In this document: positions 17,091 through 41,023 of the stretch, in pieces
How the letters are laid out: every line of letters starts with the position of its first letter
Numbering within the stretch: position 1 is the first letter of the stretch
Assembly (NCBI GenBank): GCA_021292105.1
Contig: CM037864.1
Span: 41,282,514-41,346,513 of the forward strand
DNA: 64,000 nucleotides
From: Anadara kagoshimensis
Taxonomy: Eukaryota > Mollusca > Bivalvia > Arcoida > Arcidae
Reading direction: 5' to 3'
The notes under the pieces: generated by a model
What the model saw: the letters and a program-made list of their open reading frames with translations, nothing else
What the model was told of the DNA's origin: nothing
Database searches by the model: none
Position numbers and translations under genes: made by a program

Positions 17091-17129
17091 TAACATGTGA
17101 AAGAAAAAATAAAATATGATGATACATAC

Positions 17130-17660: not shown

Positions 17661-17661
<1 letters not shown>

Positions 17662-17702
<41 letters not shown>
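17662..17702. repeat. (CT)n microsatellite
   Basis: About 20 uninterrupted CT units. Confidence 0.95.
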
Positions 17703-17705
<3 letters not shown>

Positions 17706-18657: not shown

Positions 18658-19389
18658 ACTAAACCATTAAAACTGAGTATAATATCTCAGTATCAATGAA
18701 CAACAATAAACCATATTGTCTGTTACTAGTTTTATACTTTATTTCATTAATTTATTACTGATGTCTTTTTTAACTATAAACTTTGTATTCATGTTTCGGT
18801 CATATTCAATTTTAAATGTTTTTACTCAAGTGAAATTTGATTTTTGCATCAATTTGCATATTTATTAGATACCAAAGTTCTCATGAACAAAACAGAATTT
18901 CCATTGAAATCAAAAGCTTTAATAGCAAGTTAACTTACAAGGTTACCAATATTATAAATTCTGATAAGCACATAGCTAAAAAGAAGCAGTCGAAACTCAA
19001 CTGCGAAGCTGCCACGATATGGATAGCCAATAGCAGCTGTTGAAAAATTTCAGAGACACTGTACATGTTTAAGTAACAAGGGACAGAGCTCAGCTTTCAA
19101 TTTGCTACTAGTTTCTTAGCTCCGTGTTAAACTTTCAACAGATCTGTACTGTATCCTACTGAAGATTTGTTTGTTTGTCATTGGCTAGTTCACTGCTTTT
19201 GACCATGTGACCATGGAAACCACTGATAATAAAATCAGAAAGTCAAAAGGTTTAATTACTTTTAAGATAATTAAACTTTGGAAGCCAAGAACTAATTAAA
19301 GCAATCTTGTACCATTCTTTTGTCATTGACTTCCGTTCATTGCCTAATATTTTCGCCCACATAGCAATTCCTGAAAGAGTTTTAATTAT

Positions 19390-19610
19390 ATCTAAAGCCA
19401 TTTTTTTCTTTTTTCAAAATCGATATAAAAATTTTAAAAATATTTTAAAAAAGGGTTATCATTTAAATATTATAATATTGTGTATCACAGTTAACAAAAG
19501 CCATTTTGCCTTTTTTTTCAAAATTGTCTTTTTATATAAAAATTTAAAAATCTTTTTAAAAGGGGTTATCATTTAAATATTACAATATTGAGTATCACAG
19601 TGAACAAATT
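19390..19610. repeat. Tandem duplication, about 103 bp
   Basis: Two copies from AAAGCCATTTT to GTATCACAGT(T/G)AACAAA, each containing GGGTTATCATTTAAATATTA. Confidence 0.85.
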
Positions 19611-20014
19611 GTGACAAATGACAGAAGTTTCAATTTCATCATTAAATGACTGTTCTAACCACGATATAATTCCCAAAACAAAAACAGCATTAAATATTGA
19701 ACTAATCCTGTAATATGTTGTTTATCAAGCATGGATTATGTTGTACAACTCACATATAACATTTTACCATTAAATGTTATTTTATTCCCATATGAGGTAT
19801 TATGTATACATGACCACTTTAAAGCACCTTTGGGGCCCTATATACAAGTAAAACAAATACCACTTTTCTGATGTTTCCAGGTCATCCATGTGAAGCTGGC
19901 TATGGCTACTAAAATCTAATACTGGTCCCCGAGACATTAATTCATGTATGGGAACTAATAGCTAAATCACTTTATTGTAATTCAAATACAAATTAAAATG
20001 GAGTTTATAAAGAG

Positions 20015-20243
20015 TGGAGTGGTAAAATGGTGTTTAACGTCACAGTCAATATTCTTTTATTAATATCAAGACCGTCAGTTCTGGGATGGTGGAGGAAACT
20101 GGAGTACCCAGAGACAACCCACTGGCCTTAAGCAAGGGAACTGACAAATTTTCTCGCACTAGAATCTGTCCAGAGTGGGACTCCAACCTATGTGGTGAAA
20201 GGGGCTGTGATCTGTAAGCTTTAGACAACTTATTCACCATGGC
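20015..20243 (-). mobile_element. SINE family B copy, near full length
   Basis: Minus strand. Tail GAGTGGAGTGG...GTTTAACGTCACAGTCAA, then GTTCTGGGATGGTGGAGGAA, CTGGAGTACCCAGAGACAAC, GCACTAGAATCTGTCCAGAG, and a head region with GTGATCTGTAAGCTTTAGAC. Confidence 0.85.
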
Positions 20244-20987
20244 CGAGTTTATTGTACCTTGATGTTCGATTCATCATTGCAACTGAACATTATCATCTTT
20301 TAAATACTATGATTTTTTTTTTTTAAAACAGTCACTTCAAATATATACAGAAATTCCATCTTAGAAAATATATTTTGAATTTTTTTTGCACTTTTAATAT
20401 TAAAAATTTTAAATTTTTAACAGCATGTCTATGTATTTTTTAGGATTGGAATTCTTTCCCTGTGACCAGCAAAAATGTTCTAATGTCTTGGTACTAGAAG
20501 AATAAGCATCGTTAAGAGTCACGTCAAATAACATCAACCATCTAATCATGTTCATTAAACTAATCCAATACACCACATAACTGCAAAGTTTATTTTCTGA
20601 TATCATATTATGGGGAATGATATCAGATTAATACAATGGCAGTATTGGAAATCTAACTATCGTGATCTTGTTATACAATTATTATAGGCAATTAGGGATG
20701 GTTGAGTAAGAACATTCTGTATCATTAACTTGTAACAAAAAGACCTGTATGGTACATGTATTCTCGCCAATTTGCTTTTCTTTCATGTGGTCACAATTTC
20801 AATAAATGGCAAAAGTGTTCATTCTAGAATTTTTCGGATGTGGCCATTTTCAATACCTTTCCTCTAAAACACCACAAAGCATATTTTTGTATTGATGTAA
20901 AGTTAAATATTGCCTGCTAAGGCTCATTTGGCAAAAAAAAGTATCAATGGCCAAATGACTTCTTCTAGAATCAACACTGTGGCAAAA

Positions 20988-21196
20988 TACTGTATAATGC
21001 TTATATTTCACTGTGGTTTTATTTTTGTTATATTCGCCGTTCAGTGTATTCGGGCCACCATAAAACCGCCGCAAAGATACAGCATTTTGAGGCATTAAGT
21101 AATGTTGCTCGAGAACACTTGACACCACGAAAAAACATTAGACATCTTCAAAATGTCAAAAATTTGACACCGCGAAAATAAAGCAATATACAGTAT
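20988..21196. mobile_element. MITE with 'TACTGTA' inverted ends
   Basis: The left end ATACTGTATAATGCTTATAT is complementary to the right end ending GCAATATACAGTAT. Inside are GTGGTTTTATTTTTG and GACACCGCGAAAATAAA. This resembles a common marine-invertebrate MITE type with 'CGCGAAAATA' motifs (from memory). Confidence 0.7.
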
Positions 21197-21388
21197 TTTA
21201 GTTTTGTTGGATACAAAATCAATCAAGATAATTTACCATTGGAGTAACAAAATTATGTCAAATGTCACAACAGAACAGTTAATGGCTTGATGTAACCAAA
21301 AGCAGTATTATTGTTCTCTGAAGTCTAGACCAAGTTCATTCTCCTCTGTGTGATATACTGGAATTATATCATCCTTCACAAACATAAA

Positions 21389-22530
21389 TATCTAGATTTA
21401 TCTAGTAACAATTACTTTTATTTCTGAACAAATTGAAACATGATCCTTAATTTACTCCCACAATCAGAGTTTTTTTTAGCAATAATACTTCTTTAGCATC
21501 TTGAATAGGTAGATCATTTTGTGTTATCAAGGTAAAAGTTTTTTTTACAAATAGAGAAACGTAAGCTCTTCTACAAGGCAAGCTAAATATAAGCTCTTCT
21601 ACACGGCAAGCTAAATATAAGCTCTTCTACAAGGCAAGCTAAATATGAGTAGAGTGACATAAAGTAATGGACTTTTATGCCCTAGTCAAGATTCTTTTTA
21701 CTTATATTAGGTTCTGGGATGGTGGAGGAAACCCAAGTTACTGCAAAAATCACCAACCTTCAGCAAGAGAACTTACCAACCTTTTGTCCTCCACTTTTCG
21801 AAGAAATAAACTTTCACAAAACTGGATGCAAAGCATCAACATTGATAGGAGACGCCCATATCTAGTTTTATCTAGTAACAATTACTTTTATTTCTGAACA
21901 AATTGAAATGTGATCCTATTACTCCCACAATTAGAGTTTTTTTAAGCAATAATACTTCTTTAGCATCTTTAATACCTAGATCATTTTGTGTTATCAAGGT
22001 AAAAGTTATTTTTTTTACAAATGTAGAAACATTAAACCTCTTCTACAAGGCAAGCTAAACATGAGTAGAGTGAAATGGAGTAATGGAGTTTTATGCCCTA
22101 GTCAAGATTCTTTTTACTTATATTAGGTTCTGGGATGGTGGAGGAAACCCGAGTTACTGCAAAAATCACCAACCTTCAGCAAGAGAACTTACCAACCTTT
22201 TGTCCTCCACTTTTCCAAGAAATAAACTTTCACAAAACTGGATGCAAAGCATCAAAATTGATAGGAGACGCCCATATCTAGTTTTATCTAGTAAACAATT
22301 ACTTTTATTTCTGAACAAATTGAAATGTGATCCTACTTACTCCCACAATCGAAGTTATTTTTAAGCAATAATGCTTCTTTAGCATCTTTAATATGAAAAT
22401 CATTCTGGCTATCAAGGTAAAAGTTTTTTTTGCAAATGGAGAAACATAAGCTCATTGACAAGTCAAGCCAAACATAAGTAGAGTGGAATGAAGTAATAGA
22501 CTTTTATGCCTAGTCAAGATTCTTGGAACT
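21389..22530. repeat. Triple tandem duplication carrying a SINE
   Basis: Three units begin TCTAGTAA(A)CAATTACTTT at about 21399, 21870 and 22287. Units 1 and 2 each include the tail half of a family B SINE in minus orientation (21646-21787, 22064-22205). Unit 3 runs into a SINE copy that also keeps the head. Unit 1 has a further 28-bp triplication (21563-21646, AAGCTCTTCTACAAGGCAAG). Confidence 0.9.
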
Positions 22531-22627
22531 TGTTCACACTGGAATTTGTTGTGAGTGGGAATCAAACTTAGGCGGTGAGAGGCAGAGTTATCCATAATTA
22601 TGCCCTCTAGACCACTTGGCCACCAAC
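22476..22627 (-). mobile_element. SINE family B copy with internal deletion
   Basis: The tail GTAGAGTGGAATGAAGTAAT is joined after AGTCAAGATTCTTGGAAC to the head half (GTGAGTGGGAATCAAACTTA, CTCTAGACCACTTGGCCACC). Confidence 0.85.
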
Positions 22628-22914
22628 ATTCTACATCTAAACACGGAATAATTCACATCTAAACATGGAATAATTCATCACAGAATTTTGCCCTTCAGTG
22701 TATACATATGATATGTATTCAGAATACAGAAAGTGAATACTACACTTTCATCAAACTTTTGAACATGTTTCTATATGTTGTTGACTAATAGATAATGCAA
22801 GCCTAGGCTTATCAAGGACCTCAAAATGTTTTAAAGTCCCCATCACAATTTTAACGATAAGTGATCACAATATTAACGATAAGTGTGTTGTCTTTGTATT
22901 TAAATTTATTCTGA

Positions 22915-23110
22915 ATATAACTGACATCCCATAGTTCCATGTGACTTTCATTCTCAATTTTGATGTCACATGGTGGGTGTTGCTAGCTTAACAGAAGGTG
23001 CTTACCCTTCCAGAGCACTCAATCTCAATTCTGGTTGAAGTTTAACAAATTTTGCCAGTTTTGAAGTTTTTTTTTTTGCTTTTGGACTTGTGATTTTGTA
23101 TGTTTGATTT
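22915..23110 (+). repeat. Dispersed repeat 'CTTCCAGAGCAC', copy 1
   Basis: TGACATCCCATAGTTCCATG, TTGCTAGCTTAACAG, GGTGCTTACCCTTCCAGAGC, TTTGCCAGTTTTGAAG then GGACTTGTGATTTTGTATGT. Related copies lie at 42897, 43975 and 62815(-). Confidence 0.75.
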
Positions 23111-23234
23111 TGATTGTAAAATATAATTTGTACCAGTGTACAGTAAAACCTCGATACATCACCACCATTTGTTCAGTCAAAATTTGGCACATTAAAGGGG
23201 TTTGGCGATAAATATGCGGGGGAGGCAGATAAAG

Positions 23235-24785
23235 AACAAGAGGCCCATGGGCCTTAACGCTCACCTGTGATCTTTGAACCCATGAGCTTCATTCAAATAT
23301 CAAAATGATAATTCGGCCAATATTCTAATATACATCCCTATACAAAAAGTTTATAGTTTTTGAGATAAATAATCATCTCAGTACTTGTTTGTATCTGTGA
23401 TCTTGACATTTGAACCCATGCTCTTCAATCATATATCAAAATGACCACTGTGCCAGTACCAACAATATTCTAATATACATGCCTATACAAAAAGTTAATA
23501 GTTTTCAAGATAATTAACCATTTAGGTATTCATTCGCATCTGTGACCTTGACCTTTGAACCCATGACCTTCATTCATATATCAAAATGATCATTAGGATA
23601 AGACCTAAATATTCTAATATACATGCCTATACAAAAGGTTTAGTTTTTGAGATAAATAATCATTTCAGACCTTGTTCACATCTGTGACCTTGACCTTTGA
23701 ACCCATAACCTTCATTCATATATCAAAATGGTTGTTAGGCTAATACCTACAATATTCTAATATACATGCATATACAAAAAGTTAACAGTTTTCAAGATAA
23801 TTAACCATTCAGGTATTCATTCACATCTGTGACCTTGATCTTTGAACCCATGACCTTTATTCATATATCAAAATGACCATTGGGCCATTACCTACAATAT
23901 TCTAATATACATGCCTATACAAAAAGTCTATAGTTTTAGAGATAAATAATCATTTCAGTACTTGTTTACATCTGTGACCTTGACCTTTGAACTCATGACC
24001 TTTATTAATATATCAAAATGACCATTGGGCCATTACCTACAATATTCTAATATACATGCCTATACAAAAAGTTCATAGTTTTGCAGATAATTAACTATTT
24101 TGGTAAACTTGTACATCTGTGACCTTGACCTTTGAACCCATGAACTTAATCGATATATCAAAATGATCATGTCAATACCTACAATTAACCAAAAATCCTT
24201 CATCATTATCACCAGAAATGTTTAAAAAATAGCATTTTTTATCAAAGGTCAAAAACTGGGACATGACCTTGACCTTTGACCTTGACATCAATCGGAAGAA
24301 AATCGCAAGACAAGATCAACAGTGAAAACTCCATACAATTATCTTCAGCCATTATGAAGTTATAACAATAAATGTCTTATTTTAAAAATTACATAATTTT
24401 ACGCAAAAAACGCGTTACCTATTTTCCGTTCAATTTTCATGAAAAACACAATTTAAGTGTATCTAGGTATCCTGAATCCAAATATCCAATCAAAATTTGC
24501 CTGCACCTTTTGGTTTCAGAGAAGAAGATTTTTTTTGTCTTTTGGCTATTTATAGTAACGGCAGCCATATTGTTGGGCGTGGTCAAACCCCGAACACAAT
24601 TTTGAAAGCCTGTTACCCAGGCATAATAATCACCAAGTTTCATCAAATTTGGCTCAGTAGTTTTGGAGGAGAAGATTAAAATGAAAAGTTTACGCACGAC
24701 GGACGACGGACGACGAACGACGGACGACGGACGGTGATAGATAGCAATAGCTCATCTGAGCCTTTCGGCTCAGGTGAGCTAAAAA
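23235..24785 (+). mobile_element. Tandem-core, hairpin-ended element (Pearl/HINE-like)
   Basis: The start AACAAGAGGCCCATGGGCCT then GCTCACCTG is followed by seven units of about 145 bp (23270-24200). A unique right part with the microsatellite-like (GGACGAC)n at 24692-24734 follows, then a 30-bp hairpin at 24750-24779 (GCTCATCTGAGCC / GGCTCAGGTGAGC) and TAAAA. GCTCACCTG near the left end is repeated inverted at the right end. No target duplication is seen. This architecture recalls bivalve Pearl elements, later grouped with non-autonomous Helitron-like (HINE) elements; the assignment is inference. Confidence 0.75.
23543..24290 (-). promoter_or_regulatory. Repeated arrays of nuclear-receptor half-sites
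   Basis: Units 3-7 of the 145-bp core each carry, in order on the plus strand, TGACCT, TGACCT, (T) TGAACC, (CA) TGACCT, with small changes in some units. On the minus strand these are AGGTCA-type half-sites spaced as DR2, DR1 and DR0, including the extended half-site TCAAGGTCA. At about 24264-24288 there is a perfect DR1, AGGTCA-A-AGGTCA (minus strand). Binding is not shown; the spacing pattern is visible directly. Confidence 0.4.
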
Positions 24786-25559
24786 CATAAACAAAATGGA
24801 TTTTGAGACTTCAAAATAGTGTGGCAATAAGCGAGGTGGCAAAGTTATTGAAGAGCATATAACAAGGTTTTACTGTACTTGTAATTATTTCTTAAACCAA
24901 TCAATGATTTCTACTTTGATCTTAATAATAAGCAATAAATCCCAACACTTCATGAAGAAAACCTTGTTCTTGTTTAAATAGACCTATAACCCACTATCTC
25001 CATCATAAAAATCAAACACAACAATACACCATCATTGTGCGACTGACTATTGATAAAACCATATATCATAATCAATAACTGCTTCATCAATAAAACACTT
25101 TTTGTTCTTCACTAAATAGTTGAGCACACTTGTAAATTAGGTTTTAATTATCATTATTGATATGGGAACAAAGAGATACTTTTTTAAACTAAGGACCTAA
25201 ATTACGTTGTCACTTTTTACAGAGCTGCCGAGAACAGCTGTAAATTAATTTTCAATTAATCACGATTATGAATGTGGGAATAAACAAGATTGGATTGTTA
25301 TGTCATAAAAACACTTCAGTAAATCTTTTTTTTCTTCTTTTTTTAATGTATGGTTATCGATATTGGAACAAACAAGATCAGAAATATTTCACTTTTTTAT
25401 CTGAGAATCTATATTGTGATGTCATGATAACGTCTCTTCTTTTTTAAAAGAGCTAAACAGGTATGCTTATTGACTTTCTTTTTAGATTTCTGATATTGGA
25501 ACAAATTCAATAACCAGTTGAAATGCATCACACCTTTTTTCCAAGAATATAAGTTACAT

Positions 25560-25683
25560 AGGGTTTTGGTTTTGGATTACAGTTCCATGTACCCTATAAA
25601 ACATATATGTATCCTGAACCACAAATGAAAGGTATATTGATTTTGTACAGGGTACATGGGGCTGTGTTACCTGCCAAAACCCT
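25560..25683. mobile_element. Small foldback/MITE-like inverted repeat
   Basis: The left arm AGGGTTTTGG...CCATGTACCCT is matched by the right arm AGGGTACATGG...CCAAAACCCT, with about 35-bp arms in 124 bp. Confidence 0.75.
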
Positions 25684-27002
25684 CTATAATGGTTTTGCCA
25701 CCCTTCAAAGCAGTACTAATTTAGTTGGGTTTTTTATCTTCGATATCGTATTCTGTGTGACTTGCATACATCGTGTCCACCGACCTGTCATGCAGCAACC
25801 AAATTGACACACTTTCTTGCACAGGATCTGTCCTGTCTGGGTCTCAAACACAAATGGAGAAAGGCACTGTTAGCCTAAGTGTGTACTTACAAAAGACCAC
25901 ATAGCCACCAATTAAGACCCCTTTATACATTCTAAGATTATGTTGCATTGACATTAGTTTTATTGTTTTACAGAAGCTGAAAAGAACATTAAATTAATTT
26001 TCTATTATCATTTTTGATATAGACAAAAGAATTATTAATAATTTAGTAATTTATTTATACTAGAGGACTATTGTTATGTCACAATGGTACTTAGACATAT
26101 TTTTTATGGCTTTTATCAATGTTTTATGTCATGACACACATAACAGACAAGTATCCCTGTAAATCAATTCTCTATTGTAATTATTGACATGGAACATGAT
26201 TGGAAATATTTCACACCCTTTTTTCTCTGGATTTTTATGGTCATTACTGATGTTTTCTGTCATAGTTTTTCAATTAATATTACACACTTCATTCCACATC
26301 AAAGTGTGATGCTAATTACTAATACTCATGACAGACCAATGTGACAAATACACATCCTTGAAGCAACATTATGTTTAGGGAACATCTCAAAACTGGAAAA
26401 AAGTAAAAGCAAACATGGTCACAGCATCAGGTTGTGAGGATTTCAATTATTCATTCTGACTCTAAATAGTTGTAATTACTACCTTTTTATAAATAGACAA
26501 GAAGACCCATTTAAATAGACTGCAAAATAACTTTAATCATTGCAATGTAAGTCAAGATTGAGGGCAAGGCTTGCTTTTACATGAACTTTTTCGTTACTTG
26601 AACAATTTCGCAAAAGTGTACTTGATGAAAATTTTCAAATAAATCATAGAGAATAATGTATTGGCCTTTTGACTATTCATATGTATCAATCCCAACCTCC
26701 ATTTTGCAAGACTATGATTATCAATGCCTTTAATGAAACCAAGATGTTAATGCAGAGATTCATTTGATATTCTATGGCTTCATTTTATATTTGCTTGCCA
26801 AAGGGGCAATTTAGACCTGATCTAGCTCATAGCTCCAACAATAACAAGATCACAGAAGAGCTGACAAAGGAACTTTTCAATCTTTTATCAAAGCCCTTGT
26901 TCATCAAAAACTTTATCAATTGTTGCTAATGTTGATGTAAACATTTGTAAAGTACAGGTGCATCAGATGAATCAAATTGATATATACCAGTGACCCACAA
27001 AT

Positions 27003-27361
27003 GCCACCAGAGAGTTGAGTTGAGTAATAGTGTTTAACGTCCCAGTCAAGAATATTTCACTTATATCAAGACGTCCCCAGCTATAGGCGAAGGTGCAGAA
27101 ATTTTGCCTGTACGTTGCGCTTATGGCATTATACAGCAGGCTTCTTTAGTGTGCCAAGCCCACCGTGACACGGGATCTCGTTTATTTTAAGTTCCCATCC
27201 GAAAGAACCATGACTTTTATTTCGTAATGCCGAGTGCTTGGCAAAAGAACAGTCACTACCCACTTTCAAGTCTTGGGTCAGACCTGGCCGGGGTTCGAAC
27301 CCACGACCTTCCACTGATGGAGCGAGAACTGAGCTACTGCAGTGGTTGCCACCAGAGAGTT
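27003..27361 (-). mobile_element. SINE family A, full length, 14-bp target duplication
   Basis: GCCACCAGAGAGTT flanks both sides (27003-27016, 27348-27361). The SINE body (27017-27347) is on the minus strand. The head has A-box-like TAGCTCAGTTCTCGCTCC and B-box GGGTTCGAACCCC; the 3' end is ATATTCTTGACTGGGACGTT-like with a (CTCAA)n tail. This is the best reference copy of the family here. The tRNA part is not an intact gene. Confidence 0.93.
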
Positions 27362-28583
27362 TGGCTGTATGGACACATCATACTGTAAATCTAACACTGG
27401 ATCCAGCTGATGACACAGACCAGGAAAATGACACTAGGTGTTTTGCACCTTGTTCTGGCAAGCAAACTTCTGTACTTGGTGCAGGCAAACTAACTAAAAT
27501 TCATGACACCTTAATCTGCATTATATTTATTGTTTTTAAATGAATATTTGTGATCATGCAGACACAGAATTTAAGAGGCTATAAAACTAAAACCAATAAT
27601 TATAAAAGCAAAGCTTCACATCTGCTTAAAGATTTCTGATACTATTTTTGTTATCAGCTTGATTAGTATTAAGTATGCTGATGCTAGAAAAACAAAAATA
27701 ACACACACACAAACTATCTCTCTAAACAAAGTAAGGTTAACCTCCATATAACACTGATGGATTCAAAATTTCCTCAAGTTGTTGTCATATGGGAATATGA
27801 AGTAATGACATTATTCTTTGACAAGACAACTGAGATGAATATCACTTCACAAAGAGATTTTACCGGAGCTCTTAGCATTTATAAGTGGGAACCTTATCTC
27901 CAGAATGACAAAGCTGATATTGAACCGAGCAAAAGGGAAGTCATATCTTGTTTGTATTCAAATATAGAATAACGACAATAACGTCCTTGATTTAAGAACA
28001 AACACGCTTCCAGGATCTTGTTATGAAAATAAATTATCTATAGCTTTAAGGATTAATTGGTATCTAAAAATAACTAGTAAAGAGCTAAAAATATCTTATC
28101 CTAACCGGCAGTAATATAATTTTTTTTCAAAAAACAAATTGTATTGGTAAAAACCTCATGATGAGTCAAGATAAACAAACAACTGATAGAATCGTGACTG
28201 GGTCGTAGTATGGTGATCAGATCGTAGAATGGTGATTGGATCGTAATTTCTAGGTTTTTTTTGCCAGATAATTACTTATTTAATTCTAATCTATTTCTTA
28301 ATCACTTCTCCTAGAATTAATTTGTGATCTAGCTGTCTTTAATCGTATTTAGCCAATCCCAATATTAATCGAAATAACGCTAATGGCACTTCATTTGAAT
28401 CCTAATTTTTGGTACTAACGACTTTATGTAAATTGAACGTACATAGAAATGACTTTGTACATTACTGGTAGTCAAAAATGACTGCAAGTTCTTTGTGGCA
28501 TTTGCAGTCTATCCTGAATTTAAAGGATTCACCCAATTCAGTTCTTATCCCAATTTACATAATGTGAAATGTTATTTCCATAA

Positions 28584-28768
28584 ACTGTCAAACCTGTCTA
28601 TAAAGGCCACCCAAGTGAACGAGTTAAAGTGGCCTTTATGGGCAGGTGGTCTTTATATAAAGATTCAAATAATATGAATAAAGAACAAATATATAGAATG
28701 CAATTCTACTGGACTTTATAAGCAGGTTGTCCTTATACAGAGGTGGCCTTAAAGGCAAGTTTGACTGT
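28584..28768. mobile_element. TIR element 'CAGTCAAACCTG', copy 1
   Basis: The left end CTGTCAAACCTGTCTATAAA and GGCCACC mirror the right end GGTGGCCTTAAAGGCAAGTT then TGACTGT. The interior TTCAAATAATATGAATAAAG is shared with the copy at 53072. Confidence 0.82.
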
Positions 28769-29690
28769 TCACAACTCAACACCATACTATAAGTTGGGGA
28801 AATTTTTTTGTTTTATTTTTGCATAAATAATGCAGAGTAACAAGATGCAGAAATAAAATTTGTGCAAGTTATTTATTTAATATAATTCACTTTCATATGC
28901 GCCATTTGTCAATTGATGACATGAAAATTAAAGTACACAAATTATTGCAATGACACATCTCGGAAAATTAATGACAGGAAAATTTCTCAATTTACAGACA
29001 GTACTTGGGACCTTGCTATCACATGTGTGACATATAATTAAATATTTGATACCCTTCCATCATGAGAATGACAATGTGATCATCTTTTCAAACGTGAGCC
29101 ATGTCCGTGATAAATGTGACATAATCAGTGATTTATGAAGACAATAATGAGTATAAGCCCTGTATTACATGTACTGTCATCAAACTTTACTTTACAAAGG
29201 CATATGTGTTTGATTGATTTCCTAGATAAACTTAAAACTGCAGCTAGGACTGATTCATGAAAGAAAATTAACATCGTTTTGCTTCGAGGGACAGGCAGAC
29301 TTGTTAAAGCTTCAACTAAATCTACCATCATCATCAGTGTAATAAAGATGTAATGATTCACATCCATCTATTAAGCTCCGGCTAATTATTTTTCTTTTTT
29401 AAGCTATTAGTTAGTTTTTAACTTACGACCAAGAAAAATGCATTTTATACTTAACAGAACAATCACAATGCATAATCACTGGTTCTTCTGTGCATCACAG
29501 AAGGCATAACACTGCATAAACCACAAAATGGGTGTGACAGTACTGCAGCAGAAATAGTGGGAGTTTGTTTCAAGCTGTTTATAAAGTAGCACTTTTTCAC
29601 CTAAACTGGGGTTGATTTGAGATAAAAATAAAGAAAGAGGGAATAAATTCACTATAATAAAGATAACGTTGACATTACTAAGAGGAATTG

Positions 29691-29753
29691 ATTGATTGAT
29701 TGATTGATTAATAGATTAAATTTGATTGGATGAATGAATGAATGAATGAATGA
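29691..29753. repeat. (GATT)n and (GAAT)n microsatellites
   Basis: About five GATT units, a 20-bp spacer, then about five GAAT units. Confidence 0.9.
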
Positions 29754-29823
29754 AAGAAGAGCAAAGTAAAGAGATATGGAACAACTTCACTTTTATATAG
29801 AAAATGTTAACATTTCAAATGAG

Positions 29824-29890
29824 GAATGAATGAATGGGGTTTGACACCCCAGTTGAAAACATTTCTCTTATACTGGGATGTCATAAATAA
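29824..29890 (-). mobile_element. Possible SINE tail fragment
   Basis: GAATGAATGGGGTTTGACAC, CCCAGTTGAAAACATTTCTC then TTATACTGGGATGTC resembles the reversed family A 3' end, poorly conserved. Confidence 0.4.
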
Positions 29891-30186
29891 AGCAGCAAAA
29901 TCAAAGAAGGAAGAAGAAGCACACTAAAATTCTTAGCAAAAAACTTGCTGGTTACACTGGCTTAGGAAGCCAAGACTCATTACAGAGAGACGAATCTGGT
30001 TGGTTGAATCATCAATTATATCATTCTTAATGAGGTACTTGCATGTTTTCATTCATCAAGTTAAGGATTGTTCAGTCATTGTCACTAAACAGAGATCGTC
30101 TTCAAACAGATCTAGATTGATAACTTCCATGATCAGGATAAACATAGAATAAATGTAAATAGTCATAGCTCCTGAATGTACAGACA

Positions 30187-30245
30187 GTGATTGATTGATT
30201 GATTTACTGACTGATTGGACAGGACTTTACATCCTAGTCAAGGAA
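30187..30245 (-). mobile_element. SINE family A tail fragment
   Basis: A GATT-repeat tail followed by GGACTTTACATCCTAGTCAA. Confidence 0.5.
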
Positions 30246-31440
30246 TGTACAGTAAATGTTTACAGGTTTTAATAAGTGTTTGCTTTTACTTAAGCTTTAT
30301 ATTACCAAGGCAACTAAAATTTTCTATAAGTCTGTTCATAGCATTTCTAAAAACACATTTTATTAAGACATTGGTAATTGTGGATTTGCTCATTATCTCT
30401 TTTGTAAGCCTTTTTGGTAAGCAGCAAAGCTGACAGTAATTACTTCCAGAACAAATGACTGTGAAGTCTCTTGGATTCATCTTATGACATCATATATAGA
30501 GGACCAGTCAAGCAGACAAGGATAGCTTGTCACTAACCAATCAAAGTTTAATTAAAATGCATCCATAGACATGGCAATTATGGAGTGGACAGACAGACAA
30601 TTCCTTTATGCCCCCTAAACCTGTTTTACAGGGGTATAATTATTACAAGTTGCAGCTTGACCTTTCTTATTGACTCTGTGAAATGGTTAAACAGGTTAAT
30701 ATTTATGTAAATGCAACTTTGTATAATCTATTAAATTAGATCTCTGGGTGTGAGAAATCACGGCACAAATTGGTATTACGCTGTACAATATCAGTATCAA
30801 TAATTACTCAGTAGTAACATTTTCACAGTCATATTTCCGCCATAAAATAATTCCCGACAATTTATGGCACCATTGGGAATTTGATAAGTACATTATCAGT
30901 TTGATATATACATCCCACAATTGCTTTGAATGCAACAGATGTAGTATTCCTGTATAATTTTATGTTCATTAATTCATATATATGCAAGTAGTAAAACTCA
31001 TATAGATCTATTATGTAAATATAAATTCTATTTGATGATAAAAAAAAACTTAAAGGATAAAATAGTCCATTAGATGACTGACCTAATTTTTCTGATTTTC
31101 CAGATATTTTATACATAGAAGTATTGGCTGGTATTATGTTTGACAATTTCAATAGGTCAAGAACAAGAACTTTTGCTAGTACAAACTTTTCGCTGTATGA
31201 TCAATTGACATATCACCGGCCATGCATTTTATGTTCCGACACTGGCCGCCATCACAGCACCAAAGCAGCATCACGGCAACTAATGACGCACTAGTATCAG
31301 TAACGTAATTAAATGGCACAATTCAGGCCGAGTTTTCATTCTTTTTGCTTGTAAATCAAGCATGCCAGCCATTTGTTGGAACATTGCGGGTGTGGCTGGA
31401 GATCCATCAATTTCATTTATATATGTGAAACATTTAATGT

Positions 31441-31722
31441 TGGGAATGTTGTTATTTAATGGCGAAATAACATAGACAATTGGTGAAAAAACTGCACAAT
31501 CACAGAATTACAGGACCTTTCATCAATTAGGTTTAAAATCCACTCTGGTAACATCCTAGTTTGACAAAGTAAGTCAGCTCTTTGGGAATGTTGTTCTTTC
31601 GTGGTGACATAATATAAACATTTGGTCTAAAAAGTGCACAATCACAGGATTACAGCATCTCTCACCACTTAGGTTTGAACCCCACTCTGAGAACATATCC
31701 TAATGTGACATAGTTAGTCATT
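31441..31722. repeat. Tandem duplication, about 141 bp
   Basis: TGGGAATGTTGTT...GTGCACAATCACAG...TTAGGTTTGAACCCCACTCT recurs at 31441 and 31582. The unit includes the start of a family B SINE body. Confidence 0.8.
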
Positions 31723-31850
31723 TCGACTGTCGAAGGTCAGTAGTTTTATCTGGGTATTCCACAGTTTCCCCTGCATCCCTGAACTGACCACCTAGATTTT
31801 TGTGAAAGAACCTTAATTAAATTTAACATAAAACACTATAACTCCATTCT
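31640..31850 (+). mobile_element. SINE family B copy, 5' part degraded
   Basis: CATCTCTCACCACTTAGGTT, TGAACCCCACTCTG, TCGAAGGTCAGTAGTTTTAT, CAGTTTCCCCTGCATCCC, then a degraded tail ending ACTCCATTC. Confidence 0.78.
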
Positions 31851-31857
31851 TCTCCTT

Positions 31858-32160
31858 ATCAGTGATTTTGTTACACTTTTTAAAAACTACCTTCTACCTT
31901 TTAAACTGGGAAAATTTGAAGTTCTGAAATACAGCAAACTGCATTATGACATGCATGCAAAATCTTAGGATCCTTATTATGAAGATGTTAAATTGTTACA
32001 ACATTTAACAGTTTCTGGGTAAGGAGGACATTTAGATTTAATTTGCTATCATTTTTGTTTTGGGAATTTAAGTGGTCAAATTGGGGATACTTTAATAATT
32101 TTTCTCCAGGGGGAAATACCTTTATTCAGTAGTAATTTTAGGCAAACAAAATCACTACTT
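31858..32160 (+). mobile_element. 305-bp MITE, copy 1
   Basis: It begins CAGTGATTTTGTTACACTTT and ends AGGCAAACAAAATCACT; the ends are inverted. Shared interior: TTTGAAGTTCTGAAATACAG, TTTTGGGAATTTAAGTGGTC, AGGGGGAAATACCTTTATTC. Other copies are at 38054 and 61532. No target duplication is visible. Confidence 0.85.
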
Positions 32161-33616
32161 ATACACATGTGATAAAATTTTAAGAAATAAACCATTGAAC
32201 TATCAAAATGGGAAATCTTCAGGACTGAATATTTGATTTGGATCAGGCACAGTTTCAGTTTACCAAGATTCTAGCACATAGGTTTGGTTTTTATTTGTAG
32301 ATTGTGTTATTTATAAATAAAAAGTTTAAACCACAATACAAGACATCAAAATGAAGACAGCGTAAAAAGGCGAACCCTGATGTGTTATAACATAGAAGAA
32401 AAACAAGTACTGGTAAGATAGTTACACAATGAAGCAAAATATTTATATGGATAGAAGCCAATATTTACAACTCTGTTCCAACAAATCTATCCTGTATGCC
32501 AAAAGATAATGTAATACTGATCAGTTCTAATTTAATCTAATTTACTATAACTTTACTACATTTTGTATATATACAGTACAGAACTGTCGAAAGTTTAACA
32601 CTCAGAGCTTATGAAAAGGAGTGGAAGCTCAGCTGCCTGGTGGACGAGATATAAAGAACCAGTGACCAAAAAGCTGCAAAGAGATATAAAGCAACTGCTG
32701 AAAAGCTATAAAGAAAACAAAACGCTGAAATGATCTGCCAAGTCGGCACTAATTGGTAACTATTGTTAAATTTTGGACAGGCTGGTACCATACTCAGATA
32801 TTTTATTTTAACACTTTTCTGCTTAATTTTACATGTAATGGCTTGTGACCTTTGGTAACCTCCTTACCAGTTGTGTGATAAAAGACATTACTTGTTTATA
32901 TACAAATATATTGACATCTTTGTCCTTATCGTTACATCTGCTCTCGTCAATATACTACATGTTTTACTTGTGTTTTTGCAGTGATTTCTGTATTTGTAAG
33001 TTTACTATTTGTTTATTTTGTTTTAAACATCTGTTTTTCTTTTACTCATGTGTCTGATATGTTCAAATATCATTAAATCAAATACGGATGTATGAAAATA
33101 AAGAAAACCTATTTACATTGCTTCTTGGAGTATTTTGTTAGACTGATCTTATCAAGAATTCCCCGAGAAACATATGTGTAGGAATCAGGAATGTGCTGTA
33201 AATATTTTACTTTCTTCCTTCTTAACACTCATCAGTATGACCTAATTACTTATGACCTAATTATTAACAGGTTTCTACTTCCTACTAATTATACACCTGT
33301 AAAACTGTTGCTTTATTAGAGATTAAAGGTCATCTGATGAGTAACCAGCCTGGTTTTCCCGTTTAATTGATATTTTCACCTCGCTCAGCCTGTTTCAATC
33401 TAGTGGATACAGGTGGTTACTATTTGCAAACTCTACAGAGAAACTGAAACACAGGAGCTTAAATTTCTCTCTACTGAGAATTCTTTTAATATTTTTACAT
33501 GCATGAAGGATATGATGACTCCTTTGAAGACACCTTTTAAGGTTTTCTCATCTCTATTGCAAAATTATTTTTTAAAACTAAAACTGGTTGACAGATCCAG
33601 AATACTTGGTTTGCAA

Positions 33617-34079
33617 AAAATGTATTTTATATAAGTAGTTTTACCTGACAAATGAACTTTTTCTTAAGGACATGGTCAAGCCCATAGACTTTGTTTAAAG
33701 TTAAAAGTTAAAGTCTGTCCCGAGCCATTAGGCCCATCAGGCCGGAGCTTATCCCGGTTTCCGTGGCGTTGAGCGACTGAGAGTACAAGACCCTCCCCTG
33801 AATGGGACGCCGGTCCATCGCAGGGTTAACCCCCAGCATTTTGCTGGTATTCATTTATTTTTCAGCTGAGTGAACTGGAACAACGTGAAATTAAGTGTCT
33901 TGCTCAAAGACACAACACATCGCCCGGTCCAGGGATCGAACCCACGACCTTCGAATCATGAGTCCAACGCCTTAACCACTAGGCCACGTGCTTCCACATA
34001 AAATGTATTTTATATAAGTAGTTTTACCTGACAAATGAACTTTTTCTTAAGGACATGGTCAAGCCCATAGACTTTGTTT
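33617..34079 (-). mobile_element. SINE family C with perfect 80-bp target duplication
   Basis: The same 80 bp (AAAATGTATTTTATATAAGT ... CATAGACTTTGTTT) flanks the insert at 33617-33696 and 34000-34079 with no difference seen. The 303-bp SINE between them is on the minus strand. Its head GTGGCCTAGTGGTTAAGGCG has B-box GGGTTCGATCCC; the centre has GTGTCTTTGAGCAAGACACT (similar, from memory, to V-type SINE central domains); the 3' part contains TGCGATGGACCGGCGTCCCA and GGGATAAGCTCCGGCCTGAT; and the tail is ACTTTAACTTTTAACTTT. Confidence 0.93.
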
Positions 34080-35438
34080 GATACCACCTAACTTCACAGA
34101 CTGACCAATCAAATTTATTTATTTGTCTAGATAGATACATTTTAAGTGTGCAAGGTTGCATTTTAGGTACTTTTTATCATTAAGTGTTTGATTTTGGTAC
34201 AATTTCCATACAAAATTTTCCAATTTTTAGTACTTTTAATTAAAATAAACGTCAAAATGGGAAAAATCTGTCTAATTTGACCTTTTCATTTTATCCGTCC
34301 CTTTATCCTTTTTTATGATATAAATCCGTCAAAAACAGATAAAACCGTCAAATTGGTCAGCCTGACATCATAACCACTCGACCAACACAGACCATACAGA
34401 AAGGTTTTGGTATAATACAACTTCATCCAACATAATTCTGTAATGAGATTAAAGAGACTGACAAGAAACCACATATGTTGCAATATTCATTGATTTCAAG
34501 AACTAACAAATTACAACCAAAACATTTTTTCTCAAAAATGTCATTGTCAAAAACCTATATTTATTAGGAAAAACCTAAGCAAGAAACAAGGAAGTGTATT
34601 ATCATGCTACTCAATAAAAACAATGTGAAGACATTGACCCAGACGAAATGACAAAAAAGGAGTTAAAAACGACCATAACTCATTTAATATTGGTATTATA
34701 GAATTTCATGATACATGGACATATTGGAAAAATAAAACCCTAGTAATATACAAAATTAGAGAAGAAACCTTGAGAATATTACATAATATTGGTAAAAGGT
34801 TATTTGTATATATTTTTTTGGATAATAGGAGAAGGAGGTGTAATATCCTTATTGTGTCTAGTGATAAAATGAGTTGATCAGACTCATATATACGGGTTTC
34901 ATTACTAACATCAGTGGGAAGGGGAATATCAAACAATACAGTTTCCATTACTGAACCAGTCACAATATCAGACAATCAGCCAATCTTTTCTCTCTCCTCC
35001 TCAGAATAAATGTATTCATTGTTTGTGTATAAATGCCAAAGTCTGGAGTACCTGATAATAAATGATATGATTGGTGCTAGCTGTCCGATCAGTCAGACAA
35101 ACTCAAGTACTCGTGACAATACATACAACTTCATACAATAATACTGCAACCAGTGATGGCAATACATGGATATGAATGGAATCAGAAAGAATTGACTTTG
35201 TGGATTTTGATAAGTAAATTAACATGTAAATATTTTTCTGTTTTTGACCAAAGCAAAAATTGGATTTTTTTTTTTACAAATTTGTGTTATTATGGCTCTT
35301 TTTTTATTTTTATTATTATTATTATTTTTTTTTTTTACTTTTCAATATAAAGAAAAAAAAATTAGCAACTTAAATAGTAAATGGATGGACCCATATGTTT
35401 ACCGTTTCTTAACTGCCAAGTGAATACCTTTTCACAGG

Positions 35439-35533
35439 TAATGAGTTAATTCTGGAATGCTGGAGAAATCCACAGAACCCTGAGAAAACCATGTATGAAT
35501 GATTCAACAAACACATTTTTTCATGATTGGAAC
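35439..35533 (-). mobile_element. Possible SINE family B fragment
   Basis: TTCTGGAATGCTGGAGAAAT, CCCTGAGAAAACCATG and GATTGGAACTCTGG are in the right order for a degraded minus-strand copy. Confidence 0.45.
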
Positions 35534-35638
35534 TCTGGCATATTCAAGCTTTTTAAGGAGTTTCAGTCAGTTCTTTCTATCATTAAAAGTTCCATGTAAC
35601 ATTTGTGCAGTCTGAATAAATTCAAGCTTTAGGTAATA

Positions 35639-36961
35639 CAGTGCAACTTCCGAAAACCGGCCGCCCGTGGGACCGAGGAATTTGGCCGGTTTTCAGAGGG
35701 ACCGGTATTTAGAGGGCCTATGAATCTGGTAGGTCCGATCCGGTCCGAATCTCATCCATTTCCGAAATTTATCAAACTATGTTTTGACATTTAAACGTTA
35801 ATGTCCGTGGATTAAATTTAGCATTGATCTGAAATTCCGTTCTTGATTTTATAAAGTAACTTTAGTTTAAATCTAAAACTAAACATCTGACAGATTAATA
35901 CTTACAACTGCAGTTCTCAAAATGTATATTGTAATTGGCTGCCTGTGTTGACGCGCTCCGTAAGTGGGAGGTCGTGGTTTCGATCCCCGTCCGGGTCTGA
36001 CCCAAGACTTGAAAGTGGGTAGTGACTGTTCTTTCGCCAAGCACTCGGCATTACGAAATGAAAGTCACGGTTCTTTCAGATGGGAAATTAAAATAAACGA
36101 GGTCCCGTGTCACGGTGGGCTTGGCACGCTAAAAGAACCCTGCTGTATAATGCTATCAGTGCCTATTGCTGGCGACGTCTCGATATAAGTGAAATATTCT
36201 GAGACGTTAAACACCATTACTCAACTCTCAACTCATCATCTGCCTGTGTTGACAAGGTGCACGAGGTATGGCCAGTTTCCGGATCGTGGTGACAGGAACG
36301 TTTTGATATTAAATAGTAAAAATTATTCTTGAAAGTTTCACATTTAAAAAAATATTTTAGTGACAGAATCTACTGATTTATTTGGATAAAGAAAATTTCT
36401 TAAATATTTCCGCACCGCATAATAAAACGTTCCGATCACCATGATCAGGTAACCAATGACCTAATTCAAGTGAGGAGTACTCTATAGGTAGAAATCTCGA
36501 AATGATGAAAAACTAAGAATATCATTTAAAACACATTTATTAAACTCACAAAAAAAAAACAAATAATAATAATAAACAAAATACAAATGTAAATAAAATA
36601 AACGCAGGTTTATCATACACTTTTTCATCAGCATGAAAGCACTAGATTAAAACCAGTACAGCATGTGTACATTATGACACGCTGTTATTTCAGTGATTAG
36701 ATTAACTGACAAGAGAAAATCGCTTTCCGTTACGGTTCAATGATGCATTGCGACACCCGACGGTCGGTTTTTGGAGGTAAATTATTGAGATGTAACGTAA
36801 ATTTGGCACTTAAAAAAGGCCGGTATTCGGAATTCAGAGGGGCCGGTTTATGGAAGTTTTTTAAATATAAACAAAGAAGTATAAATTCGGGACCGGCCCC
36901 GCGTGTTCGGTATACAGAGGTGATCGGTTTTCGGAAGGGCCGGTTTTCGGAAGTTGCACTG
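35639..36961. mobile_element. 1.3-kb pogo/Tigger-type TIR element with nested SINE
   Basis: The ends are perfect 24-bp inverted repeats (CAGTGCAACTTCCGAAAACC... and its complement) flanked by TA. Subterminal GGCCGGT/TTCGGA motifs recur at both ends. No transposase reading frame of useful length is seen; the 88-codon frame near 36740 runs into the right end. Without the SINE and its duplicated site it is about 1.02 kb. Confidence 0.92.
35939..36253 (+). mobile_element. SINE family A with 14-bp target duplication
   Basis: CTGCCTGTGTTGAC flanks it at 35939-35952 and 36240-36253. The insert is truncated at the 5' end (starts GCGCTCCGTAAGTGGGAGGT) and keeps a B-box-like GTTTCGATCCCC, the body (GCCAAGCACTCGGCATTACG, CGATATAAGTGAAATATTCT) and a CTCAACTC tail. 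It lies inside the TIR element 35639-36961. Confidence 0.93.
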
Positions 36962-37046
36962 TATTACGTCAATCCAATAACAGCCACTTCTACACAGACA
37001 AGGTAACCTTTGCAGACATATAGACGCCCACAAACACTATACCAGT

Positions 37047-37066
37047 AAATAAAATAAAATAAAATA
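37047..37066. repeat. (AAAAT)n microsatellite
   Basis: Four AAAAT units. Confidence 0.9.
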
Positions 37067-37089
37067 GGCTTAAGAACTCAGGGAAGCCA

Positions 37090-37387
37090 AATAATGGCAA
37101 ATATCACATCAGATTTTTTCCTCCTATGATAGGTTTCAGAAAAGATGTTTTTTTGCACCTGTATGTCACCTTTGACCTTGTTTTTGGTAGCCATGGAAAT
37201 AGCACAAACAATTCTGAAATGCATTTGTCAAGACATGCTTGGATGACCAAACATCACTGAAATCTGTCCAGTAATTTCAGAGGAAAAGTTGAAATGTTTG
37301 TTACTCACACCACCACACACACAGACACATATGCATGTTATGCCATTCCATAAGCTCACATGACCTTTGGCCAGGTGAGCTAAAATT
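37090..37387 (+). mobile_element. Relic right end of a hairpin-ended element
   Basis: TGTCACCTTTGACCTTG, CTGTCCAGTAATTTCAGAGG then AAAAGTTGAAATG, a short CAC/CA-rich stretch, and a hairpin at 37353-37381 (AGCTCAC...GTGAGCT) followed by TAAAA. This is the same order as the right end at 24600-24785, but diverged. The left part is missing. Confidence 0.6.
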
Positions 37388-38053
37388 GATCCAATGATAA
37401 AACAGTGAAATGTGAAGATGTCTTAAACCAAGATATAAATCATAAGAAGAAAACTATGTAGACAAATTAATGTCTCTCTGCTAGAGTCAATCATTACAAT
37501 CTTTGATAACTTATACTACACCACTGTCCACCCTCCCACTTCTCTTTACAATAACATCTTTTACTTTTTACATATCTTCCAACTCAACCTTGCTGATAAA
37601 CTTTATATGAAACAATTCAGAATCTGTTTTCAGTGGGATGTTAATACTTTAATGAAACAGTCAGGAAGTATTGGTATCTTATAGAGATTTCCTCGTGACT
37701 TTCTGAAAATAACTGATGGATAAAGATAGAAATCTTTTTATGATTCTTCAGGTATAGATTCAAGCTCTTCCTAATACTTTTTATACATAGTGGTTGTGTT
37801 TGTGTTATATAGGAGTTTGTTTTTTTTTTAATACCAGTATTCAACTTCTTGAATCCAAAAGATAAAATTACTGTTATGATCAAATAATGGGTTCTATTTA
37901 AGTATGGTATTTATGTATATGATGTTTCAGATGTTAAATCTCTACTTTGTTCTACTGTTTAACAGTTTAAAGTTCTCAGTCTCTAACCTCAATTCTAGTT
38001 TTATTTAAGCCAATACTGCTCAACTTTCAAATGTCTTCAACAGGTAGTTACCA

Positions 38054-38355
38054 CAGTGATTTTGTTACATTTATTTTTTTGAAAACAACTTTCTGCCTTT
38101 TAGATTGAGAAAATTGAAGTTCTGAGATCAAGGAAACTGCTGGCAATATCTATAGTACCTTTATTACAAAGACACTATATTGTGGTACTATTTAATATTT
38201 TGTGGATAAGGACAACTAGATTAAAATTAAAATTGTTTTCAGAGCATCACTTTTGTCTTGGGAAATTTTAATGGACAAATTGGGAATTTTAGTCATTTTT
38301 CCTAAGGGGAAACTTTCTTTATTTGGTAGTAATTTCAAGCAAACAAAATCAGTGT
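38054..38355 (+). mobile_element. 305-bp MITE, copy 2
   Basis: It begins CAGTGATTTTGTTACATTTA and ends AAACAAAATCAGTG, with the same interior blocks as the copies at 31858 and 61532. It ends 13 bp from the exon-derived satellite. Confidence 0.85.
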
Positions 38356-38368
38356 ACAAAAATAAAGA

Positions 38369-40428
38369 TTATGTTTTATTTACTTACTTCTGGCTTTGTG
38401 TGGTTTTTTAGAGGTGGGTTGCCATCGTATCTCCGTCATATCAGGGTTTATTATGTTTTATTTACTTACTTCTGGCTTTATGTGGTTTTTTAGAGGTGGG
38501 TTGCCATCGTATCTCCGTCATATCAGGGTTTATTATGTTTTATTTACTTACTTCTGGCTTTATGTGGTTTTTTAGAGGTGGGTTGCCATCGTATCTCCGT
38601 CATATCAGGGTTTATTATGTTTTATTTACTTACTTCTGGCTTTATGTGGTTTTTTAGAGGTGGGTTGCCATCGTATCTCCGTCATATCAGGGTTTATTAT
38701 GTTTCATTTTACTTACTTCTGGCTTTATGTGGTTTTTTAGAGGTGGGTTGCCATCGTATCTCCGTCATATCAGGGTTTATTATGTTTCATTTTACTTACT
38801 TCTGGCTTTATGTGGTTTTTTAGAGGTGGGTTGCCATCGTATCTCCGTCATATCAGGGTTTATTATGTTTTATTTACTTACTTCTGGCTTTATGTGGTTT
38901 TTTTAGAGGTGGGTTGCCATCGTATCTCCGTCATATCAGGGTTTATTATGTTTTATTTACTTACTTCTGGCTTTATGTGGTTTTTTAGAGGTGGGTTGCC
39001 ATCGTATCTCCGTCATATCAGGGTTTATTATGTTTTATTTACTTACTTCTGGCTTTATGTGGTTTTTTAGAGGTGGGTTGCCATCGTATCTCCGTCATAT
39101 CAGGGTTTATTATGTTTTATTTACTTACTTCTGGCTTTATGTGGTTTTTTAGAGGTGGGTTGCCATCGTATCTCCGTCATATCAGGGTTTATTATGTTTC
39201 ATTTTACTTACTTCTGGCTTTATGTGGTTTTTTAGAGGTGGGTTGCCATCGTATCTCCGTCATATCAGGGTTTATTATGTTTTATTTACTTACTTCTGGC
39301 TTTATGTGGTTTTTTAGAGGTGGGTTGCCATCGTATCTCCGTCATATCAGGGTTTATTATGTTTCATTTTACTTACTTCTGGCTTTATGTGGTTTTTTAG
39401 AGGTGGGTTGCCATCGTATCTCCGTCATATCAGGGTTTATTATGTTTCATTTTACTTACTTCTGGCTTTATGTGGTTTTTTAGAGGTGGGTTGCCATCGT
39501 ATCTCCGTCATATCAGGGTTTATTATGTTTTATTTACTTACTTCTGGCTCTATGTGGTTTTTTAGAGGTGGGTTGCCATCGTATCTCCGTCATATCAGGG
39601 TTTATTATGTTTTATTTACTTACTTCTGGCTTTATGTGGTTTTTTAGAGGTGGGTTGCCATCGTATCTCCGTCATATCAGGGTTTATTATGTTTTATTTA
39701 CTTACTTCTGGCTTTATGTGGTTTTTTAGAGGTGGGTTGCCATCGTATCTCCGTCATATCAGGGTTTATTATGTTTTATTTACTTACTTCTGGCTTTATG
39801 TGGTTTTTTAGAGGTGGGTTGCCATCGTATCTCCGTCATATCAGGGTTTATTATGTTTCATTTTACTTACTTCTGGCTTTATGTGGTTTTTTAGAGGTGG
39901 GTTGCCATCGTATCTCCGTCATATCAGGGTTTATTATGTTTTATTTACTTACTTCTGGCTTTATGTGGTTTTTTAGAGGTGGGTTGCCATCGTATCTCCG
40001 TCATATCAGGGTTTATTATGTTTTATTTACTTACTTCTGGCTTTATGTGGTTTTTTAGAGGTGGGTTGCCATCGTATCTCCGTCATATCAGGGTTTATTA
40101 TGTTTTATTTTACTTACTTCTGGCTTTGTGTGGTTTTTTAGAGGTGGGTTGCCATCGTATCTCCGTCATATCAGGGTTTATTATGTTTTATTTACTTACT
40201 TCTGGCTTTATGTGGTTTTTTAGAGGTGGGTTGCCATCGTATCTCCGTCATATCAGGGTTTATTATGTTTTATTTTACTTACTTCTGGCTTTGTGTGGTT
40301 TTTTAGAGGTGGGTTGCCATCGTATCTCCGTCATATCAGGGTTTATTATGTTTTATTTTACTTACTTCTGGCTTTGTGTGGTTTTTTAGAGGTGGGTTGC
40401 CATCGTATCTCCGTCATATCAGGGTTTA
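38369..40428 (-). repeat. Satellite of 25 units derived from an exon-intron boundary
   Basis: Twenty-five tandem units of 82 bp (83 in several). Read on the minus strand, each unit is the last 63 bp of the PLC-like exon (encoding NPDMTEIRWQPTSKKPHKAR plus one base), the donor GTAAGT, then about 13 more intron bases. The rightmost unit (exon part 40366-40428) is the real exon end; the other 24 lie in the intron. The exon-derived part is almost invariant. The variants I saw are a CAC/CAT synonymous difference in the His codon, one Lys-to-Arg change (near 39550), one extra A in the Lys run (near 38900) and an extra T on the plus strand in the intron part. The outermost units (first, and 24th-25th from the left) carry CAC while most interior units carry CAT, suggesting that inner units spread from a derived copy. 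A 305-bp MITE ends 13 bp to the left. Confidence 0.95.
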
Positions 40429-40515
40429 ACGTAAATATTCTATGGTATTGTCTACTATTAGATCTAACTTTTATTAATTCACTGCCACTCTGCATATATT
40501 GTAAACAATCTTGAG
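40366..40515 (-). CDS. PLCL-like: PLC-like protein exon: N-terminal half of PH domain
   Basis: A minus-strand exon of 150 bp, phase 1 at both ends. The acceptor is a long T-run then CTGTTTACAG, and the donor is AA|GTAAGT. It encodes QDCLQYMQSGSELIKVRSNS, then RQYHRIFTLNPDMTEIRWQP, then TSKKPHKAR. From memory this matches the start of the PLCL/PRIP PH domain (C-x-Y-M-Q-x-G-x-E-L-x-K-V-R-x-N-S-R-x-Y-x-R-x-F-T-L, then R-W-x-P-x-K-K). The basic K-V-R...R cluster sits where this PH family binds inositol phosphates. PLC-eta and PLC-delta share the fold, but in my reading they lack the R-x-N-S-R-x-Y-x-R spacing. The 3' 63 bp of this exon, with its donor, is the founder of the 25-unit satellite next to it (38369-40428). 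The exon itself contains the rightmost unit and is intact. Confidence 0.93.
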
Positions 40516-41023
40516 CTGTAAACAGAAAAAAAATAAAATATATTAAATTTTGAGTTAAAAAAAGCATAAAAGAAAATATAAACAATTTTCATCTATAAAA
40601 GAAAATGTTAACAATTTTGAGCTATAAACAGAAAAAAATAAAATAAACAAATGTAAAAACTACAATAAGTTATAAGATGTTTTGTACAATACGCATCATC
40701 TGAAAATTATGGTCACACCTTCTTTATTTACATCTATCAAGTTTTTATGACATATAAACAAACAAAGAAATAAATTCACAGATGGTGTAAATGGAGATAG
40801 AAATAAGACATCGGTAAACAAAATGTCAAGTATTTTATGTATTTATATATCATCAAAAAATATGGACACACCTTCCTGAAGGAATTTCAAATTTTTATGA
40901 TCTAAGATCAAAAAAAAAACCATTAACATCACTTTTCACAGATGTTATACACTCAGAAATTTATAACATGTTGTAACATACAAAAACATACATTTATTGA
41001 TGAACAAAATAATATGACCACAT

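Follow-up and report, generated by a model that had tools for sequence, protein, structure and literature searches.

A minisatellite made from an exon end and its 5' splice site in a phospholipase C-like gene of Anadara kagoshimensis

Within a 64,000-nucleotide stretch of the genome of the bivalve Anadara kagoshimensis (GenBank assembly GCA_021292105.1, contig CM037864.1, positions 41,282,514 to 41,346,513; hereafter the window, whose positions are used throughout), a predicted phospholipase C (PLC)-like gene carries a tandem array of 25 units in which the end of a coding exon and the 5' splice site behind it are repeated together. We regard the array as probably a minisatellite of the kind called a mirage, which arose by tandem duplication of the exon end and 5' splice site and whose 24 later donors are mostly passive. 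This kind of repeat is already known; what is new, within the literature searched, is the gene in which it sits, the copy number, the apparent copying of a block of units and the duplication of sequence on both sides of the exon.

The locus amounts to a natural experiment in splice-site choice, with 25 identical donors spaced regularly 82/83 nt apart behind a single authentic acceptor. If splicing is normal, position must pick the first donor, because the donors do not differ from one another; if it is not normal, copy number should predict the fraction of truncated product. The locus may also widen the range of boundary-spanning minisatellites beyond the reports considered here, which concern amphioxus and human.

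The array and its units

The array consists of 25 head-to-tail units of 82/83 bp on the minus strand, running from 40427 to 38368 and made up of unit 1 and 24 intronic copies (Table 1). Tandem Repeats Finder placed it at 38368-40428, with a period of 82, 25.0 copies, 98% matches and a score of 3955. Units were defined by cutting the minus strand at every AAACCCTGATATG. Each unit contains 62 exon bases (63 when the shared T is counted, and 63 in type E), followed by GTAAGTAA and then by 12-13 nt of intron, and the exon-intron boundary is spanned in 25 of the 25 units. The array lies beside the authentic boundary within its parent gene, unit 1 being the end of the coding exon itself. The initial annotation had described a 25-unit satellite made from an exon end and its donor inside the parent gene, and both the splitting into units and Tandem Repeats Finder bear this out; it had also derived the rightmost unit from the exon at 40515-40366 and placed 24 more in the intron following that exon, which proved correct.

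The units fall into six sequence types, A (13 units), B (6), C (3) and D, E and F (one each), arranged in the 5' to 3' direction as C C A C A A B A A A D B B A B A A A E B B A A A F. Across all pairs, the edit distance between units has a mean of 1.3 and a maximum of 3, and unit 1, which is the true exon end and the 5'-most unit, has the same sequence as units 2 and 4. The donors are the same from -4 to +8 in 25/25 units, reading AGAA followed by GTAAGTAA. A core of 26 bases from the exon part was matched 25 times with 0 mismatches, against an expectation of 0 from 100 shuffles, and no dispersed copies of this core were found elsewhere in the 64 kb on either strand when up to 3 mismatches were allowed.

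The host gene

On the minus strand, the first base of the PH-domain exon is at 40515 and the G of its donor at 40365, while the following exon begins at 17348. Joining the exon at 40515-40366 to the exon at 17348 keeps the reading in phase (AGA A/TA CCT, giving ...KPHKARIPVGTIKEV...) and yields an open PH domain. The joined protein matched the Pfam profile PH_12 over its cut-off (1.2e-18), and among PDB entries the best match was the PH domain of PLC-delta-1 (1mai, 3.3e-14), with PLC-gamma chains second (2.6e-5). Judged from its sequence, the host of the array is a phospholipase C-like gene with a PLC-family PH domain, and transcription of this gene from the minus strand is predicted from the coding phase and the domain matches. 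The wording of the first PH exon may be nearer the PLC-like (PRIP/PLCL) group than the delta group. No X box was seen on the minus strand of the window in a rough look with short PLC motifs, one of which was a pattern unable to match.

Table 1. Exons, repeat units and duplicated splice-site segments at the array locus (window positions)
Feature	Positions	Strand	Remarks
PH-domain exon of the predicted PLC-family gene, 150 nt	40366..40515	-	Its last 62-63 nt supply the exon part of unit 1
Following exon, with the second half of the PH domain	17130..17348	-	3' end placed by the donor-like CAT/GTATGT at 17129
Intron, 23,017 nt, with the array at its start	17349..40365	-	Between the PH-domain exon and the next exon
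Unit 1, type C, 83 bp	40345..40427	-	True end of the exon, with donor GTAAGT at 40365-40360 and the first 21 intron bases
Units 2-25, the 24 copies of exon end and donor within the intron, 82/83 bp	38368..40344	-	All read AGAA/GTAAGTAA
Higher-order block structure	38614..40014	-	Nine consecutive places match between units 6-14 and units 14-22, at an offset of 8 units
Duplicate of the acceptor end of the PH exon (pyrimidine tract, AG and first 16 exon bases)	40606..40645	-	37/41 alignment columns identical
Degenerate further acceptor-end copies, between the duplicate and the true acceptor	40539..40600	-	In one stretch an AG precedes 40592

Comparison with known boundary-spanning repeats

The term mirage is used for minisatellites of amphioxus that span an exon-intron boundary; they are described in Adh3, in the globins BflGb6 and BflGb9 and in TnC, with imperfect ones in PGBD5 (PMC3087553, PMC3902484). 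According to these reports, splice signals are present in many units, either boundary can be copied and the units show concerted evolution (PMC3087553, PMC3902484), and one array is reported to have less homogenised ends (PMC3087553). Copy number in the amphioxus mirages is described as differing between haplotypes and also in the soma. The present array resembles that of BflGb9, in which the 5' splice site is likewise described as copied, and differs from that of BflGb6 in having 25 units of 82/83 bp as against the 6 and 3 units of 150-160 bp given for its two haplotypes. Within the literature searched, the name appears in cephalochordate reports only, and in a search of open-licence literature directed at molluscs, the 8 papers listed of 12 held, by title and abstract start, nothing fitting beyond the two amphioxus papers. 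To go by its title, a 1995 paper by Turri, Cuin and Porter reportedly concerns a minisatellite that provides an interferon-induced transcript with multiple splice donors.

The array also corresponds to the human CBS repeat in carrying an exon end and 5' splice site in many copies. This variable number of tandem repeats, c.1444_1467+7(16_21), is described as having a 31-bp unit in 16-21 copies, with a copy number that varies between people (PMC2630376). By its formal name, the CBS unit comprises 24 exon and 7 intron bases, that is, an exon end and donor as in the array here; it is shorter than the 82/83 bp of our unit, and its copy number is close to the 25 of the array. Variable internal tandem repeats at exon-intron boundaries have been described in human duplicated genes and are said to be able to form novel introns (PMC2812944), whereas the unit of the present array is without a good acceptor.

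Donors, acceptors and the choice of splice site

Measured against the ideal U1 target, the array donor matches at 8/11 positions and has A at -1. The minus strand of the window has another 39 GT sites with matches at 8 or 9 of 11 positions, the lone 9 being the likely donor of the next exon at 17129, so the array donor is fair and not exceptional. The initial annotation had called it strong, which at 8 of 11 positions and with A at -1 has to be lowered to moderate. In unit 6 (type A), five AGs are preceded by 25-50% pyrimidine at -5 to -20, and the corresponding figures for the two true acceptors are 88% and 69%; a unit can therefore supply a donor but hardly an acceptor. The annotated lack of an obvious acceptor thus stands for the single unit looked at, as judged by pyrimidine content only. 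Reading through the first donor gives AGA-AGT-AAG-TAA, so the stop annotated at this point is correct, and use of any later donor would run immediately into the TAA and would truncate the protein within the PH domain.

In the Rogers model of intron birth by tandem duplication, a donor would pair with the AG of the next unit and one unit would be removed as a new intron. In its favour, by inspection the next CCAG follows the donor at ~80 nt and a branch-like CTCTAA lies ~18 nt before that AG. However, this AG is preceded by only 25% pyrimidine in unit 6, none of the five AGs of that unit exceeds 50% by this single measure of acceptor quality, and the array is already entirely intronic, so nothing would be gained. 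We consider intron birth at this locus extremely improbable.

Under the favoured mirage explanation, the last 62-63 nt of the PH exon, together with the 5' splice site and ~20 nt of intron, would have been duplicated in tandem, after which unequal exchange or slippage would have enlarged the array to 25 copies, probably with one copying of an 8-unit block. By inspection, the junction of the array shares just one T with the flank. The spliceosome would define the 150-nt exon between donor 1 and the acceptor preceding 40515, and later donors would be passed over because the units have no usable acceptor and each added donor extends the exon by 82/83 nt, as exon definition in general leads one to expect. 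Any leak to donor 2 or 3 would meet the TAA at once and produce a truncated, probably decay-prone mRNA. The sequence itself shows the anatomy, homogeneity, phase and stop; the mechanism of duplication, the choice of the first donor and the near-neutrality of the array are what we infer.

The acceptor end of the PH exon has been copied as well, which indicates that local duplication took place at this locus more than once. The duplicate at 40645-40606 lies 106 bp upstream of the true site and places a decoy-like acceptor before 40621. Its alignment score was 59, compared with a maximum of 34 when the upstream kilobase was dinucleotide-shuffled 500 times and 35 for the next-best place on the window's minus strand. 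Compared with their reference copies, the degenerate copies are 66% (40539-40576) and 76% identical. The AGs before 40621 and 40592 would define exons of 256 and 227 nt, with stops after 3 and 11 codons, respectively; they are preceded by 88% and 75% pyrimidine and for this reason are better decoy acceptors than the AGs of unit 6. The upstream copies, being degenerate, are probably older, and the downstream array would be fresh. The preceding intron also holds two diverged direct-repeat pairs, each ~150 bp apart (40703-40722 with 40856-40875, and 40737-40769 with 40887-40919), and the 969 bases that flank the array on its opposite side yielded no direct repeats.

These features can also be read as a decoy or switch, in which donors of identical sequence compete for U1, splicing from a later one gives a TAA-ended PH fragment or a target for decay, and copy number tunes the output. 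The identity of 25/25 donors from -4 to +8 and the in-frame TAA directly past donor 1 speak for such a device, as do the upstream decoy acceptors, which likewise lead to early stops (3 and 11 codons), and the human CBS exon 13/intron 13 repeat, for which a review gives lower enzyme activity with more copies (PMC5188458). Amphioxus mirages are, however, described as leaving regular splicing undisturbed: Adh3 data and globin reverse transcription PCR are said to suggest this (PMC3087553), and the Adh and TnC mirages are said to yield no aberrant mRNAs (PMC3902484). Identity of the donors is, moreover, expected without selection. A decoy or switch is in our estimation unlikely. The alternatives considered here overlap with one another and with the favoured explanation, and their probabilities need not add up to one.

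AATAAA hexamers and RNA structure

The hexamer AATAAA occurs 43 times in the 2,060 nt of the array, compared with 1.6 per kb on the rest of the minus strand, and every unit has one or two. By inspection, 24 of these hexamers are created at tandem junctions (CAT-AATAAA-CCC) and 19 belong to intron tails, those of types A, C, D, E and F; unit 1, where the intron truly starts, already contains one. The GC content of the window is 32.7%, and in so AT-rich a sequence the abundance of AATAAA proves nothing alone. It is nevertheless the point in favour of intronic polyadenylation, by which AATAAA in the units would end transcripts early unless U1 protected them and would leave an mRNA for a truncated PH protein. 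Against this, hexamers are by themselves weak evidence in an AT-rich window, and the sequence past the junction hexamer is, by inspection, not U- or GU-rich. We judge early termination of this kind highly improbable.

The decoy and polyadenylation accounts can be combined. The PH exon is flanked by two decoy-like acceptors on one side and by 24 donors and the AATAAA hexamers on the other, all of which would lead to early stops, and copy number could act as a graded rheostat that cuts the amount of full-length PLC-like protein through exon extension or intronic polyadenylation, with variation between individuals and perhaps tissues. Such a rheostat is decidedly unlikely. The predicted RNA structure of units 1-4 was no stronger than that of shuffled sequences (z -0.07; 43 of 100 shuffles at least as good). 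None of these observations demonstrates a function for the array. Open frames of up to 164 aa on the plus strand across the array were considered and are regarded as by-products of the repeat.

Variation among units and history of the array

By a hand count over the units, 3 of 63 exonic and 2 of 20 intronic positions vary (Fisher p = 0.59), and the chance that five random changes would spare the 8-bp donor is ~60%. Since the exon part is no less variable and the donor could so easily have escaped change, there is no sign of selection on the copies. The nearly invariant exon part to which the initial annotation drew attention varies no less than the intron part; the recent expansion or homogenisation that it proposed is supported by the near-identity of the units and the apparent 8-unit block copy. 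Near-invariance points to youth or homogenisation and not to constraint, for which five varying sites still leave room.

The distribution of variants is informative about this history. The base of the exon's CAC codon is kept in types C and F (4/25 units) and is T in the other 21, a change that would be synonymous if it were in the exon. Type C units are on the exon side (the identical units 1, 2 and 4) and the single type F unit, which also keeps the exon's base, is at the far end (unit 25); this placement at the two sides of the array fits a variant that arose inside it and then spread by exchange. Type E (unit 19) has an extra A and is a frameshifted copy. The block match listed in Table 1 requires that units 11 and 19, whose types D and E are single-base private variants, be read as A, and these were merged after inspection. 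A run of nine was reached in 0.69% of 20,000 label shuffles, a value that is indicative only, as the labels were merged in hindsight and the shuffles ignore local similarity. The simplest account would be an apparent copying of an 8-unit block, with single changes afterwards.

Several observations weigh against a largely passive mirage. The test for selection has little power with so few varying sites, and the weaker homogenisation of array ends is visible at the distal end only, where unit 25 differs from the majority; units 1, 2 and 4 at the exon side are the same. An effect on gene output is possible, because the CBS repeat is reported with lower activity at more copies. Near-identical units and a block copy are, in addition, typical sites of assembler failure, and an inflated copy number or a misjoined array could account for part of what is seen here; one amphioxus mirage was apparently misassembled in the genome draft, according to the report describing it (PMC3087553). 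On the other side, the window contains no N, the private variants D and E tell the two blocks apart, and the unit core occurs only in the array within the window. We consider an assembly artefact very unlikely.

Other features in the window

Four further tandem arrays are present, at 2459-3025 (29-bp units), 23318-24185 (~145 bp), 47755-47934 (28 bp) and 60005-60522 (34 bp), and none of them overlaps either identified exon. At its gathering threshold, Rfam returned a single match in the window, which is tRNA-like and unrelated to the array. It lies on the minus strand at 33922-33991 in the same long intron, scores 30.6 bits against a cut-off of 29, and may represent a tRNA-derived short repeat. 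The open frames at 51045-51362 (minus strand) and 62508-62804 (plus strand) share long near-identical stretches (MSPAIGEGAEILPV, CADGII, FPSERTVTFIS and KNSHYPL) and probably belong to an interspersed repeat present in both orientations.
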